Origin: Cytophagales bacterium
GTDB taxonomy: Bacteria; Bacteroidota; Bacteroidia; Cytophagales; Cyclobacteriaceae
NCBI GenBank assembly: GCA_013298505.1
Contig: JAAFHY010000016.1
Span: 1-51,648 of the forward strand
Direction of reading: 5' to 3'
DNA length: 51,648 bases
Shown here: positions 12,458-18,759 of the stretch, in pieces
How positions within the stretch are numbered: position 1 is the first letter of the stretch
Layout of the letters: every line of letters starts with the position of its first letter
The notes under the pieces: model-generated
What the model saw: the letters and a program-made list of their open reading frames with translations, nothing else
What the model was told of the DNA's origin: nothing
Database searches by the model: none
Translations under genes and position numbers: made by a program

Positions 12458-13156
12458 CTAATTCTTCTTTATTCTAATTTCTTTCATTAAGTCTTCAAGA
12501 TAGTCAGTCTGAACTTCTTGAATTTCTAATAGTATTTTGTTTTGATGAACCAGTAGGTGGTCCATTTTTTCACTCAATAACTTTATTTCAAGTTCTGCTT
12601 TTAGATTGATTTTATAATCGTGTTCGCCCCGTTGCCGATCTTTTTGCTCTTGTCGGTTTTGACTCATCATAATAATTGGTGCTTGAATAGCAGCCAAACA
12701 GGAAAGGATGAGGTTCAATAAAATAAAAGGATACGGGTCAAATGGTTTTGTGGCAAGAAACCAACTATTAATGAGCATCCAAATCAGTATGAAAGAAAAA
12801 AATATGATTATAAAAATCCAACTACCACCAAATGCAGCTACCTTATCGGCAATTCGCTGTCCGAAAGTGAGCTCTGCTTCTATTTCTTCTTGTATATTTT
12901 CAGAAAGAATGGAGTTGTTCTTAATTGCTTCCATCACGTCCTTATCAATTACTGCCATTTCACCTTTTTCTTGCGTTATCAATGAGGTCAGATAAAGCCG
13001 TCTGTATTTGTTCAATTCAGCTATTGATATACTGTCGCCTTTGTCAAAATCGGGGAAGTCGGTCTTTATGAGATTGAAGACTCCTTCTCTGATGTCTTGA
13101 CCTACTACCTCTTCCCCCTTCAAAATTTCATGTTTGCTAATATGGCTAGTTTTCAT
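12458..13156 (-). CDS. DUF1003 membrane protein
   Basis: The 232-residue form starts at ATG 13156 (MKTSHISKHEILKGEEVVG). A GTG at 13222 would add 22 strongly basic residues that the family lacks. The C-terminal half carries the DUF1003 signature: ADKVAAFGGSWIFIIIFFSFILIWMLIN, PFDPYPFILLNLILSCLAAIQAPIIMMSQNRQ. This gives two transmembrane helices joined by a short loop, followed by a cytoplasmic coiled segment. Function is unknown in this family. It is a single-gene unit in the accessory stretch. Confidence 0.83.
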   Translation of the reverse strand: MKTSHISKHEILKGEEVVGQDIREGVFNLIKTDFPDFDKGDSISIAELNKYRRLYLTSLITQEKGEMAVIDKDVMEAIKNNSILSENIQEEIEAELTFGQRIADKVAAFGGSWIFIIIFFSFILIWMLINSWFLATKPFDPYPFILLNLILSCLAAIQAPIIMMSQNRQEQKDRQRGEHDYKINLKAELEIKLLSEKMDHLLVHQNKILLEIQEVQTDYLEDLMKEIRIKKN

Positions 13157-15295: not shown

Positions 15296-15432
15296 GACCG
15301 TTTGTGTTTGCGCAGTAGGGAGCTTCCGAAGCCGCGGCCTGTCCCCGAAACCAAACGTTGAACGAAGATAACACTTATAGCTTACACGTCACCGCGCTAT
15401 TGCAGAAGCATTTTGTTGGTGGCTGTGTGGCC
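15296..15432 (-). repeat. attC-like palindromic element A, downstream of the hydrolase module
   Basis: Read on the minus strand it starts with the module-end 18-mer GGCCACACAGCCACCAAC, which is complementary at 16 of 18 positions to the module start at 16407-16424. It then shares a core with element B: TATCTT, a TTCGG/TTTCGGGGACA stretch, and CGCGGCTTCG. It is more decayed than B: the arms pair poorly and the expected GTT at the far end reads GTC. It occupies the middle of the 336-base spacer 15170-15505. A TATCTTCG at 15363-15370 (minus strand) could serve as a -7 element for the SDR gene. Confidence 0.6.
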
Positions 15433-15505
15433 TTCTGTTCGCTTCCTTTATAAACGTGTGTTTCATCTCAAAGCTAAGAAGATATTTGCGTCTAACGATC
15501 GTCAC

Positions 15506-16324
15506 TCATTTGATTAATTCATTAACAAAGTCACCGATTGCATCGTAAAGTTCTTTCGGGTTGTCGTAAAAAACAAAATGATTACTATCAGAAATTTCTT
15601 TAATGTTCATGCCGTTCCCTAGAAGATTTGGAATGTATGAAAGTGAACTATTTTCCTGTCCATAAATAAATACTCTGGGAATTTCCATTGCTAGATATTG
15701 TTTTAGCAATTCTCCTGTCGATGAATACCCTACGGTTTGAAAACTGTAATTGTAGTATGATTTTATGTTTGTATTTAGTTGCAAATTATTGGCAATAATA
15801 TGATACCCCGTATTGCCTTTACTTTTCATATCAACAATGGTGTTCGGGAATATTTTATTCTTGAAGGTATCATAGTCATACGTAACGACTTTACTCGAAA
15901 ACATACAATCCTCAAGCATTAGGTTTCCTTCAATGTTTATGTACCCCTTTACTTTAGCAAGTCCGCCTCGTTTCAAATATAACAAAGTCGTTAGTCCACC
16001 CATGCTTGTTCCACAAAGGATAAATTTCGCAATGTTTAGGTGCTCAATAAAAAGCGAAGTGATCGATGTCAGATCATCAACGTCAAGGAGAAAGTCGTCA
16101 TAGTATGTTGAATTTCCAGTTCCTGGATTATCAAAGCAAATGAGTGTGTGGTCAGCTAATGAATCTGACTTACATGATTCCAAATAATTCTCCTTGGCAC
16201 CACCCAGTCCATGAATAAATAAAATGGTCTCCTTATGTCCTTTGCGAAAAAAGTATTCAATTTCAAATTCTTTATCTTTATACGAAAGTTCAATTTTTCT
16301 AATTTGTGGTGTTTCCTTCTTCAT
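15506..16324 (-). CDS. Alpha/beta hydrolase in a cassette-like module
   Basis: The 272-residue alpha/beta hydrolase shows the oxyanion-hole HGLGG at 38-42, the nucleophile elbow GTSMGG with Ser107, a likely acid residue after strand 7 and the catalytic His249 (SNHFVFYDNP). There is no signal peptide. The substrate is unknown; small esters or lactones would be typical. The gene is framed by GTTGGTGGC-type ends (15415-15432 and 16407-16424, reverse complements at 16 of 18 positions), with a palindromic spacer on each side and one gene inside. This is the layout of an integron cassette, and it lies in the same orientation as the neighbouring HEPN module. Confidence 0.83.
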   Translation of the reverse strand: MKKETPQIRKIELSYKDKEFEIEYFFRKGHKETILFIHGLGGAKENYLESCKSDSLADHTLICFDNPGTGNSTYYDDFLLDVDDLTSITSLFIEHLNIAKFILCGTSMGGLTTLLYLKRGGLAKVKGYINIEGNLMLEDCMFSSKVVTYDYDTFKNKIFPNTIVDMKSKGNTGYHIIANNLQLNTNIKSYYNYSFQTVGYSSTGELLKQYLAMEIPRVFIYGQENSSLSYIPNLLGNGMNIKEISDSNHFVFYDNPKELYDAIGDFVNELIK

Positions 16325-16406
16325 TTTATGTGTTGTTTTGTCCCTGCTAATTTTAATTTCTCAGGAGATATTTCGCAATTTAACCTGTTTGTTGGAAAAT
16401 TTGTCC

Positions 16407-16558
16407 GGCCACATTGCCACCAACGTGAGTATTTGCGTTCGAGCGGGGCTTTCGAAGCCGCGTGGTGTCCCCGACACCGAACGCATTAAAGATACGAAAA
16501 CGTTGGATTACGCGTCAACCCCGCTTGACGCAAATACATTGTTGCCAGCAGTGCATTT
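16407..16558 (-). repeat. attC-like palindromic element B between the two modules
   Basis: On the minus strand the order is: module-end 18-mer of the HEPN gene (16558-16541), then an arm GTATTTGCGTCAAGCGGGG. A central region follows with its own GGTGTC-GGG-GACACC hairpin, then the matching arm CCCCGCTCGAACGCAAATAC, then the module-start 18-mer of the hydrolase (16424-16407). The arms pair over about 19 bases with two differences and the AAC...GTT cores lie 117 bases apart, inside the 57-141 range usual for integron attC sites. The flanking 7-mers do not match the strict RYYYAAC/GTTRRRY consensus. Confidence 0.72.
16487..16518 (-). promoter_or_regulatory. Candidate Bacteroidota-type promoter inside element B
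   Basis: On the minus strand TTGAC is followed 19 bases later by TATCTTTA, close to the Bacteroidota -33/-7 pattern (TTTG, TAnnTTTG). It would transcribe leftwards into the hydrolase gene, whose ATG is at 16324. Transcription from within an attC-like spacer would make the module self-sufficient. This rests on sequence match alone. Confidence 0.4.
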
Positions 16559-16561
16559 AAC

Positions 16562-17914
16562 CTACTTTTTTTCGTTGCCTCGTTCATACTCTACTAAATT
16601 GAGAATAATGTCTCTTAATAATTGGTCGAGTAATATGCAGTTTTTAACTATGTCGTCTGCTTGTCCAATTTCACCTTTGTGAATGGCATTATGTCTAACT
16701 ACTCTCACAAGATTTTCAAGGTCAGGGGTCAGATCAACTTTCGCATCTTCAATCATTGAAAGGAATTTCTCCTCAGTTCTTTTTCTTCTTACGATGTTTA
16801 AGTCTCCAATCCTCCCTTTAATAGAATTTATGTGCTTTCCAAAAATGCCCTTATGCCGCTCAATAACATCAAGAATCTGTCCTTTTACAGTTTCGAATTT
16901 TTCCGGGTCGGAGGCAAAGGCTTCTTTTTCGTTAAGTGTGTCCACATACTTTGCAGCTAATCTTTCAAACGCAATGATTTGAATGAAGAATCTATCCTCG
17001 ATACCTTTAGACTGTTCTGCATTCGACAAATAGAATACGATTGAATTCAAATCCAAAGCTTTGTTCCATTCGCGGTATTTGTCAAAACTGAAAATAAAAA
17101 ATCTGTTTAAGATATTTTGTCCAATGTTGAGATGACTTCTTAAAGGTATGTAGTCGTTGTGTCGTCCGTTTACGACTCTCTTGAACGAATATGTTATGGA
17201 AATTTGGGAATCTATTTTACCTACACTGTAATAATATCCAGTGAATTCAGCTCTTACTTTAACTTCTGCTCCGTTTAGAAATGAGAGAGCTGAAACGTAA
17301 TCCCTTTTTAATTCAATAAATGTTTTGTATAAAAGAGTGTTATTTGAGTTATTAGGAAACTCAACAATAATATTGTCAGAATTACTGTCCTTGTAAAAAA
17401 CTTGATTGTAAGGAAACCTTTCAGCCACTAATAAAGCTCGTGTATGGTCGCGTTTTAAGTCTTTACCATCGCTAATTTTCTCCCCACCTCTCGCCCTTAT
17501 TTGTTCTGTAACATCAGTGAAAGTCATTTTTAGTCCCTCTAATTCCAAGTAGTGTAACTTGTGGGGTTCTTCTGTCAGTTCATCTGGAGTTGTGGGGAAG
17601 TCTGTTAACTCTGTGTGCGTTATCGAACCATAACAAATCATTGAAATCTTTGATTCGTAAGGAACTGTCATTGTAAAATGAAGAGTCGTGATTTCAATCT
17701 TATTGTTCTTATCTGTTTTGCAATGACAATTGAATGATGTTGTGTCTTGTTCATCATATCTTCTTTTTGAGAACTCTGACAGATTGAATGATTCATTTAT
17801 GTAAACATCAACAATGAACGTCCCATCGTCTTCGTATACTAGTCCGAAATCAATTGGTAGTTTAATGTCGGTCGACTCGAGAGTCCCTTTTTTGAGTCTA
17901 TAAACTTCTCTCAT
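16562..17914 (-). CDS. HEPN-domain protein, ApeA-like (candidate anti-phage protein), in a cassette-like module
   Basis: The 450-residue cytoplasmic protein has two parts. About 290 N-terminal residues are strand-rich with no catalytic motif I recognise. The helical C-terminus (FFIQIIAFERLAAKYVD near 310, then LENLVRVVRHNAIHKGEI) contains R407-HNAI-H412. This R-x4-H motif is the catalytic signature of HEPN ribonucleases, and the N-terminal-domain-plus-HEPN layout matches ApeA-type abortive-infection proteins. Assignment to ApeA is by architecture and local motif. The gene is framed by inverted 18-mers (16541-16558, 17937-17954; 17 of 18) and followed by palindrome B, as a mobile cassette would be. 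A HEPN domain of purely housekeeping RNA metabolism remains possible. Confidence 0.7.
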   Translation of the reverse strand: MREVYRLKKGTLESTDIKLPIDFGLVYEDDGTFIVDVYINESFNLSEFSKRRYDEQDTTSFNCHCKTDKNNKIEITTLHFTMTVPYESKISMICYGSITHTELTDFPTTPDELTEEPHKLHYLELEGLKMTFTDVTEQIRARGGEKISDGKDLKRDHTRALLVAERFPYNQVFYKDSNSDNIIVEFPNNSNNTLLYKTFIELKRDYVSALSFLNGAEVKVRAEFTGYYYSVGKIDSQISITYSFKRVVNGRHNDYIPLRSHLNIGQNILNRFFIFSFDKYREWNKALDLNSIVFYLSNAEQSKGIEDRFFIQIIAFERLAAKYVDTLNEKEAFASDPEKFETVKGQILDVIERHKGIFGKHINSIKGRIGDLNIVRRKRTEEKFLSMIEDAKVDLTPDLENLVRVVRHNAIHKGEIGQADDIVKNCILLDQLLRDIILNLVEYERGNEKK

Positions 17915-17936
17915 TTCTTACTAGTCCGAACTTTGA

Positions 17937-17954
17937 AAATGCATTGCTGGCAAC
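17937..17954 (-). repeat. Start boundary 18-mer of the HEPN module
   Basis: AAATGCATTGCTGGCAAC differs by one base from the reverse complement of 16541-16558 at the other end of the module. In integrons the start of a cassette is complementary to its own end, because both come from one recombination site when circular. It lies 23 bases before the start codon of the HEPN gene. Confidence 0.7.
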
Positions 17955-18027
17955 TCCCAAATATAAGCAACTCCCTGTCAAGAATTTTCCGATATCCACA
18001 AACTGTTACTGGCTTTGAGCAACTCTC
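17950..18027. repeat. Three GCAACTCYC direct repeats outside the cassette-like array
   Basis: GCAACTCCC occurs at 17950-17958 and 17967-17975 and GCAACTCTC at 18019-18027. The first overlaps the module boundary. Direct repeats beside the first cassette recall the integrase-binding repeats of attI sites, but no integrase gene is in the window. The 377-base spacer 17915-18291 otherwise holds only the GC-rich element that follows. Confidence 0.45.
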
Positions 18028-18074: not shown

Positions 18075-18255
18075 GGTAGGCAAGTCGGCCAGCGATACCT
18101 TCCTGCAATGTCGCTTCGGCAGGCTGGGAAGTGGAAAGCCTCCCGAGGCTCTGCTCGTACTAAACTACCGCGCACTTCAACGAGGGAGCTTGTACCGGAT
18201 AGCGCGGTGCCACTGCCTATCTGGTCGGCAAACGCCCCGCGCGGCAGGCCGCCAT
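18075..18255. other. GC-rich multi-hairpin intergenic element of unknown kind
   Basis: About 180 bases are visibly richer in G+C than the surroundings and contain several stems: GCCTC-CC-GAGGC; CTTCCTGC against GCAGG...GGAAG; TACCGCGC against GCGCGGTG. No open frame with family resemblance is seen on either strand. It could be a REP-like repeat, a structured RNA or the remnant of another cassette spacer. It lies just before the SRPBCC gene and marks the right edge of the accessory stretch. Confidence 0.45.
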
Positions 18256-18291
18256 CAATAAACTCTTTTCTGTTTTTGCTGTTTTAGTGGC

Positions 18292-18759
18292 ATGAAGATT
18301 TACAACCTTACGCGCACGCAGGTTTTGCCCATTACGCTGGCAGAAGCTTGGGATTTTTTCTCTACGCCCAAAAACCTATCGAAGATTACGCCCGAGCACA
18401 TGGGCTTTGAGATTTTATACATTTCGGGTGGCGATAAGGCCTACGCAGGGCAGATCATTCGCTACAATGTAAGTGTAATACCTGGCATTAAGTTGCATTG
18501 GGTAACGGAAATCACGCAGGTAAAAGAGCCGCTGCATTTTATTGACGAACAGCGTTTTGGGCCGTATGCGCTGTGGCACCACCAGCATCACTTTAAAGAA
18601 GTGCCGGGCGGTGTAGAAATGACTGACGAGGTGAACTATGCCATTGGCTATGGATGGATTGGACGGCTGGCGCACTGGATTTTTGTGGGCAAAGAGGTAA
18701 ATCGTATTTTTGAGCATCGGTATAAGGTGTTGGAGGAGTTTTTTAAAACTAAACGATAA
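18292..18759 (+). CDS. SRPBCC (START-like) family protein
   Basis: This 155-residue single-domain protein begins LTRTQVLPITLAEAWDFFSTPKNLSKITPEHMGF and continues with W..EI...KEP..F.DEQ, GPYALWHHQHHFKE, then the long C-terminal helix (LAHWIFVGKEVNRIFEHRYKVLEEFF). These are hallmarks of the SRPBCC ligand-binding fold in the branch found beside carotenoid and photolyase genes. It probably binds a hydrophobic ligand; a link to carotenoids is inferred from context. It is the first gene of the plus-strand carotenoid run. Confidence 0.83.
   Translation: MKIYNLTRTQVLPITLAEAWDFFSTPKNLSKITPEHMGFEILYISGGDKAYAGQIIRYNVSVIPGIKLHWVTEITQVKEPLHFIDEQRFGPYALWHHQHHFKEVPGGVEMTDEVNYAIGYGWIGRLAHWIFVGKEVNRIFEHRYKVLEEFFKTKR

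Follow-up and report, generated by a model that had tools for sequence, protein, structure and literature searches.

Integrons are the best known gene-capture platforms, and their integrase and cassette array are usually laid out divergently; in pdif modules, which have a six-nucleotide variable block, genes are moved by Xer-type recombinases. Conservation among the attC sites of integrons is described as limited to AAC and GTT in the part of PMC2727003 that deals with these sites, and the usual test for IntI, as given in a section of PMC9668308, is a profile of the IntI-specific domain. Bacteroidota stand among the phyla listed with integrons in an excerpt of PMC8618304, and the passages of a RefSeq survey that concern Bacteroidetes proper report at first only In0 elements and then one complete integron, in Salinibacter (PMC9024848). 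Here, we analysed a stretch of 51,648 nucleotides (nt) from a Cytophagales bacterium of the Cyclobacteriaceae (the window: contig JAAFHY010000016.1, assembly GCA_013298505.1), which carries two gene modules, each framed by its own inverted 18-mer and followed by an attC-like palindrome. With a probability of roughly 0.86, we consider the two modules to be cassettes of an integron-like capture system of Bacteroidia that is run by a non-IntI recombinase, and the window to hold a two-cassette fragment of it. The original prediction, made from the window alone, had suggested that they might belong to an unusual branch of integrons or to a cassette system of Bacteroidota related to them, and most of the tests reported below fit that proposal.

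A repeat search of the window recovered exactly the two inverted 18-mer pairs that had been described around the genes, one 94% (17 of 18) and the other 89% (16 of 18) complementary, and each encloses one open reading frame (ORF) on the minus strand. On this strand, which also carries all features listed below, the first ORF lies between start arm 1 and end arm 1 and is followed in the 5' to 3' direction by element B, after which come start arm 2, the hydrolase gene, end arm 2 and finally element A. Cassette 1 (16424..17953) runs from the TT of its start GTT to the G before the next TT, boundaries that were set by analogy with a duplicate cassette and by element alignment. Its cargo is a 450-residue protein without known function (16562..17914); its start arm, GTT GCCAGC A A TGCATTT with the unpaired A as position 11, lies at 17937..17954, and its own end arm, complementary at 17 of 18 positions, at 16541..16558. 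Element B (16422..16543, 122 nt from AAC to GTT) scores 114 bits with R1, a covariance model built from 18 elements; its inner arm is paired at 10 of 10 positions and its predicted folding is strong (-34 to -35 kcal/mol, DNA parameters). Cassette 2 (15299..16423, delimited by element alignment) carries an alpha/beta hydrolase of 272 residues (15506..16324) between the start arm GTT GGTGGC A A TGTGGCC (16407..16424) and its own end arm (15415..15432, 16 of 18), and is closed by element A, a terminal attC-like site (15299..15417; R1, 144 bits). Palindromes A and B are 82% alike over 39 nt.

According to the original prediction, the start of each module is complementary to its own end while neighbouring modules differ, and we found this to hold well outside the window. 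Start arms were compared with the reverse complement of own end arms in 96 cassettes of this genome and its relatives, kept from an element set of 134 rows; AAC could not be located near its expected place in 8 rows, nor GTT in 9, and the set included two opposite-strand matches of elements from one array of this genome (E 0.029 and 0.045). Start and own end matched at 11.96 of 18 positions, compared with 5.91 (standard deviation 2.03) for 9,120 non-own pairs. Among the 94 distinct cassettes, own pairs averaged 10.33 of 12 positions, and 10,000 permutations gave a mean of 4.76 and a maximum of 5.51; the two flanks of one same element averaged 4.79 of 12 (n=71). Arm complementarity thus tracks the cassette and not the array site, which fits a helix that matters in an excised circle. 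The arms have a regular anatomy: positions 1-3 are GTT in all 96 (as the search required), positions 4-9 agree in 93-95% of own pairs versus 31-62% of non-own pairs, position 10 agrees in 49% and position 11 in none, and agreement returns to 60-89% at positions 12-17 before fading by position 19. Position 11 is an unpaired A on the start strand in 96 of 96 cassettes, and the six bases after GTT (N6) occur as 48 different blocks among the 94.

The inner part of the elements repeats this design. The inner arm is paired at eight or more of ten positions in 106 of 113 rows, and in the 106 that passed this filter it has ten paired positions (79-100%), then a position 11 that is paired in none (A opposite C in 88), after which pairing resumes; 84 of the 113 rows have spacers of 4 and 5 nt. 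Consensus folding found at least one pair-keeping change on both sides in 13 of 25 pairs. By predicted fold the sites are of attC type, with AAC/GTT ends, R and L stems and an unpaired central spacer, and the unpaired position 11 (mostly A opposite C) occurs in the L stem and also in the R stem as a mismatch, not as a single protruding base. In DNA folding, the joined junction of a cassette's own ends exceeds the junction found in the array by a mean of 9-10 kcal/mol in stability, and it was the more stable of the two in 78 of 85 cases (top strand).

Further copies of these elements flank unrelated genes, as had been anticipated, and they do so in one-way arrays in this genome and in relatives. 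Searched against the 3.96 Mb assembly at E <= 0.01, element A hits 16 places and element B 12, and R1 finds 20 elements. Ten strong elements, all on the same strand, lie at 9.7 to 19.0 kb of contig C170 (locus L029), the intervening genes mostly share this strand, and two further weak elements (one at 18196-18338, one at the contig end) bring the total to 12; the weak element at 18196 divides a stretch with mismatched ends into two cassettes whose ends match. The cargo includes a MarR regulator, an Rce1-like protease, a DJ-1/PfpI protein and a below-cut-off match to HEPN_Cthe2314. C170 is the main array of this genome (9.7-19.6 kb), and the contig end cuts off its upstream side. Element A of the window (15299-15417) is mosaic-like, its left half resembling the subtype of most C170 elements and its right half another subtype, with three of ten inner pairs broken.

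Across genomes, nhmmer found 340 elements in 80 of 82 loci. With three duplicate loci (L059, L060, L064) left out of the direction and cassette-similarity counts, all 64 loci with two or more elements were unidirectional, and the longest ORF lay on the array strand in 208 of the 219 cassettes with an ORF of at least 60 residues (33 of 252 cassettes have none of this size). R1 elements occur in 41 of 58 genomes (this one and relatives) and, under stricter filters, in at least 65 of 296 genomes of the class, a lower bound because at most ten candidates per genome were scored. A pattern scan of named genomes returned 61 stretches, 34 of them from one Cytophagales metagenome-assembled genome and most others from Cyclobacteriaceae and Flammeovirgaceae.

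The same cassette also occurs in different contexts. Similarity at 80-100% identity across at least 85% of the length places some of the 252 cassettes in nine clusters, and in seven of the nine the known same-side neighbours differ. In one relative (G008, contig C11), a cassette occurs twice in an array; identity runs from CGTT through the ORF (100% over the compared cassette), takes in the cassette's own element behind it, which differs at one place in the part shown, and stops exactly at the next CGTT. Judged from this comparison of genomes, the cassettes appear to be mobile units with boundaries at G^TT.

We found a candidate enzyme at the array heads. In the same genome, contig C134 encodes a 346-residue tyrosine recombinase (G000:C134:174-1214), the genome's best match to TIGR02249, located 173 nt from the contig end; the arrays at L138, L147, L117, L129 and L135 have relatives of it upstream, in the same orientation. 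The statement that there is no integrase thus stands for the window, where no ORF of at least 80 codons matches the C134 recombinase at E <= 1e-3, and fails for the genome. For 59 members of the recombinase family, most of them without an individual array check, we examined the downstream DNA, omitting four loci with less than 100 nt after the stop codon. A cassette-start pattern, satisfied by 86 of the 96 known starts, followed within 300 nt in 34 of 55 loci, compared with 4.6 expected from shuffles that preserve single-base content only, 3 of 55 on the other strand and 2 of 54 upstream. In five loci, a start with its own end lies ~95-150 nt past the protein match, a position that would correspond to attI, and the start behind the C134 gene matches the cassette start of a relative (G035) over 30 printed bases. 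Contigs tend to break off just past the recombinase: they stop no more than 600 nt beyond its 3' end in 21 of 59 loci, and no more than 600 nt before its 5' end in one. The family (E <= 1e-50) is present in 158 of 296 class genomes, and not every member need serve cassettes; many may act on other sites. Among genomes with at least five elements, 17 of 20 have the recombinase (Fisher p = 7e-4).

Arrays can also be detected from the recombinase outwards. We took twenty loci behind recombinases (15 from other orders, three from the same family, one from the same genus and one from another family of the order) and applied a chain detector that uses arm complementarity and the A11 rule only. Of the 20 loci, 7 had chains of two or more cassettes on the recombinase strand and none had them on the other strand; by kinship, these were 3 of 3 in the same family, 4 of 15 in other orders and 0 of 2 in the others. 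Candidate pairs numbered 39 on the recombinase strand versus 8 on the other. The genome G247 has 31 elements, not all adjacent, within 77 kb after the recombinase and all on its strand. With the detector relaxed, the closed plasmid NZ_CP041688.1 (Chryseobacterium sp. SNU WT5) carries, directly behind its recombinase, two cassette-like units in a chain and one more candidate; a search of plasmids for element-like DNA gave a single 57-nt match and nothing more.

This system shares with integrons a tyrosine recombinase gene beside a putative insertion point, a one-way cassette array, and units made of an ORF and a downstream palindromic site with AAC/GTT outer ends, an unpaired spacer, unpaired stem positions and GTT boundaries. 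The differences lie in the enzyme and in the details of the site. An insertion of ~41 residues, found in each of the 20 IntI compared, all from other classes of this phylum, is missing from the Bacteroidia recombinase in 59 of 59 cases; the spacing from KDR to HxLRHS is accordingly 67-68 residues in all 59 versus 109 in all 20 IntI, and alignment to the solved structure 2a3v leaves residues 184-243 unaligned. Of the suggested tyrosine recombinase with an integron-specific patch, the recombinase is therefore present at array heads and the patch is not. TIGR02249 scores reach 166-226 bits in five of five proteins, below the curated cut-off of 265 bits. In a tree, IntI form one clade (100/96) and the cassette recombinases fall outside it, as one group at 70/90 only, with long outgroup branches and no placement relative to Xer. 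The recombinase is co-directional with its cassettes, its 3' end toward the array. At the sites, GTTRRRY is exact in 7 of 96 cassettes, in line with the remark that the strict core is not met, and GTTR is found in 96 of 96. The outer arm spans ~17 nt with a fixed mismatch, compared with attC pairing extended to 9-11 consecutive nt in the portion of PMC2727003 that treats it, and position 11 is unpaired in both arms, whereas known attC sites have extra-helical bases in the L stem. The anatomy is integron-like, yet by definition the system is not an integron, because the insertion is absent, the cut-off is missed, the IntI clade is separate, the recombinase is co-directional, GTTRRRY is exact in so few cassettes and a position is unpaired in both stems. 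Five recombinases were also compared with NF040815 (XerA-type, 'site-specific tyrosine recombinase/integron integrase'), which was their best or second-best NCBIfam match at 186-217 bits, all under its 220-bit cut-off; some annotated relatives carry this name, which comes from the model and not from a shown cassette function.

The reading that survives best beside ours is that these are canonical IntI-driven cassettes remaining after loss of IntI, i.e. a classical cluster of attC sites lacking an integron integrase (CALIN). It would account for the attC-like anatomy (AAC/GTT ends, inner inverted repeat, unpaired spacer), and integrase-less clusters are called common among known integrons in a passage of PMC9024848. 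We nevertheless regard it as improbable, since IntI above the curated cut-off is found in none of the 58 genomes, own and relatives, although the same search is positive in 85 of 296 genomes of the phylum, 84 of them outside the class (whose share of the sample is unspecified), and since the recombinase at the array heads belongs to another group than IntI. No extended-arm cassette chain was found near 8 canonical IntI genes (16 loci), a weak control because the arrays of those IntI are unverified. One of these 16 loci, L299, beside a canonical IntI of another class, has two weak R1 matches at 12831-12972 and 15372-15514 (33 and 30 bits).

Still less probable is that the modules are of Xer/pdif type, in which XerCD acts on dif-like sites with a 6-nt spacer to move genes. 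The recombinase is kin to XerC, XerD and XerA, and an exchangeable six-nucleotide block resembles the Xer overlap region. Half-sites of pdif modules are conserved and dif-like, however, whereas those found here are cassette-specific, self-complementary arms in which the 94 cassettes show 48 different N6 (dif itself was not searched for); the elements are foldable and ~120-170 nt long, and the array-head recombinase is separate from both Xer-like genes of this genome (C177 and C122). The least credible proposal, of small transposons or miniature inverted-repeat transposable element-like units with terminal inverted repeats, or of repetitive extragenic palindromic-like repeats spread by a RAYT-type enzyme, draws on the terminal inverted repeats of each module and on copies scattered over several contigs, but is at odds with termini that vary from unit to unit (48 N6 in 94 cassettes; own-end match 10.3 of 12, other-end 4.8), with units chained head to tail in one direction, and with a duplicated unit that consists of a gene plus its downstream element and stops at GTT.

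For an integron-like system with a non-IntI recombinase, we propose the following mechanism. A dedicated tyrosine recombinase, encoded just upstream of an attI-like site, would act on the attC-like sites, ~120-170 nt in length, with which the cassettes terminate. Within an excised circle of single-stranded DNA, the cassette's start arm and its own end arm (GTT N6 N A N6) would pair with each other; together with the inner inverted repeat they would give a hairpin in which two similar half-sites, both having position 11 unpaired (as a rule A opposite C), flank an unpaired spacer of mostly 4/5 nt. The shape of this hairpin would be what the recombinase recognises when it links the cassette through G^TT to attI or to some other site. 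The window pair may have been integrated elsewhere than at attI, or have stayed behind, as a fragment without an integrase. We infer single-strand folding in the cell, strand choice, catalysis and the insertion of the window pair away from attI (or its having stayed behind).

The six bases after GTT may themselves be exchangeable. Nine cassettes share one ~410-nt body (79-93% alike) and have four different N6 (GTAGGC in four, GGGTGC in three, GCATGC and GTGCAC in one each), and in nine of nine both ends share the same N6 with nearly constant outer arms; in cassettes with the outer arm AGGCGC, the two ends agree in 14 of 15, and the remaining one, whose two N6 differ, resembles an intermediate. 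These patterns suggest that recombination swaps the N6 at one end and that hairpin-templated repair copies it to the other. We put forward only tentatively, at somewhat less than even odds, a recombination platform of Bacteroidia apart from IntI integrons in which N6 is an exchangeable block. A cassette at L097 (2730-3303) has a different N6 at its start and end, a possible arm-exchange intermediate.

Several results weigh against the interpretation of the modules as cassettes of such a system. Excision, integration and recombination themselves are inferred. Element A folds weakly (-21 kcal/mol, 7 of 10 inner pairs formed), probably because its two halves derive from two subtypes. A strain precisely lacking one module, which the original prediction had proposed to look for, did not turn up among the loci compared: no empty allele of the window locus was found, and the left-hand dehydrogenase lies within the 1.5 kb flanks in none of 29 loci. 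Among the cassette clusters, one had no comparable side, and in another (L084/L095) the flanks are identical too, so that it shows no movement and is uninformative on it. On the side of the enzyme, the cassette-start pattern is missing in 21 of 55 loci, an apparently ordinary gene comes next after the recombinases of L165 and L168, and the recombinase (E <= 1e-50) is missing in 15 of 41 element-bearing genomes, some of which are fragmented. No chain follows the recombinase in 13 of 20 loci (eight with unchained candidate pairs on the recombinase strand, five with none), and two of three plasmid regions held no cassette candidate even with the relaxed detector.

If the interpretation is true, many Bacteroidia own an integron equivalent whose recombinase the IntI-specific domain test should not accept, which would allow a direct test of whether folded single-stranded sites are usable without the IntI insertion and would make a pool of unknown cassette genes accessible. 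We recognised no prior description of such a system in the open-licence PubMed Central literature; one may be in print elsewhere.

The cargo and surroundings of the window pair were also characterised. The label of alpha/beta hydrolase for the cassette 2 protein is borne out by a match to Abhydrolase_1 (2e-12), and the HEPN label given to the 450-residue protein of cassette 1 is left without support, as this protein has no Pfam match at E <= 0.05 and no PADLOC match at E <= 0.01; among its 65 homologues in the protein collection, the legibly named ones are each a 'hypothetical protein'. A search of 193 further genomes of the order returned relatives of neither cassette gene (E <= 1e-10 and 1e-15), so the conserved gene order that would have spoken against cassettes is not seen, and the missing relatives fit cassette cargo, as expected. 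At the outer junction, GTC (15296..15298, by element alignment) stands in place of the TT with which the next cassette starts in other elements, and the upstream junction reads TGGGAG (17954-17959); the two suggest that the pair was inserted into what would have been a non-array target. The right-hand neighbour gene of the locus is present in 32 of 58 genomes, this one included. Near a relative of that gene in G010 (locus L240, 2665-2697), 33 nt are 91% like a part of element B. Klebsiella and Aeromonas plasmids carry a recombinase ~53% identical over 72% of the query. An Rfam scan of the window gave one match, the bacterial RNase P class A RNA (RF00010, 50976-51387, 260 bits).

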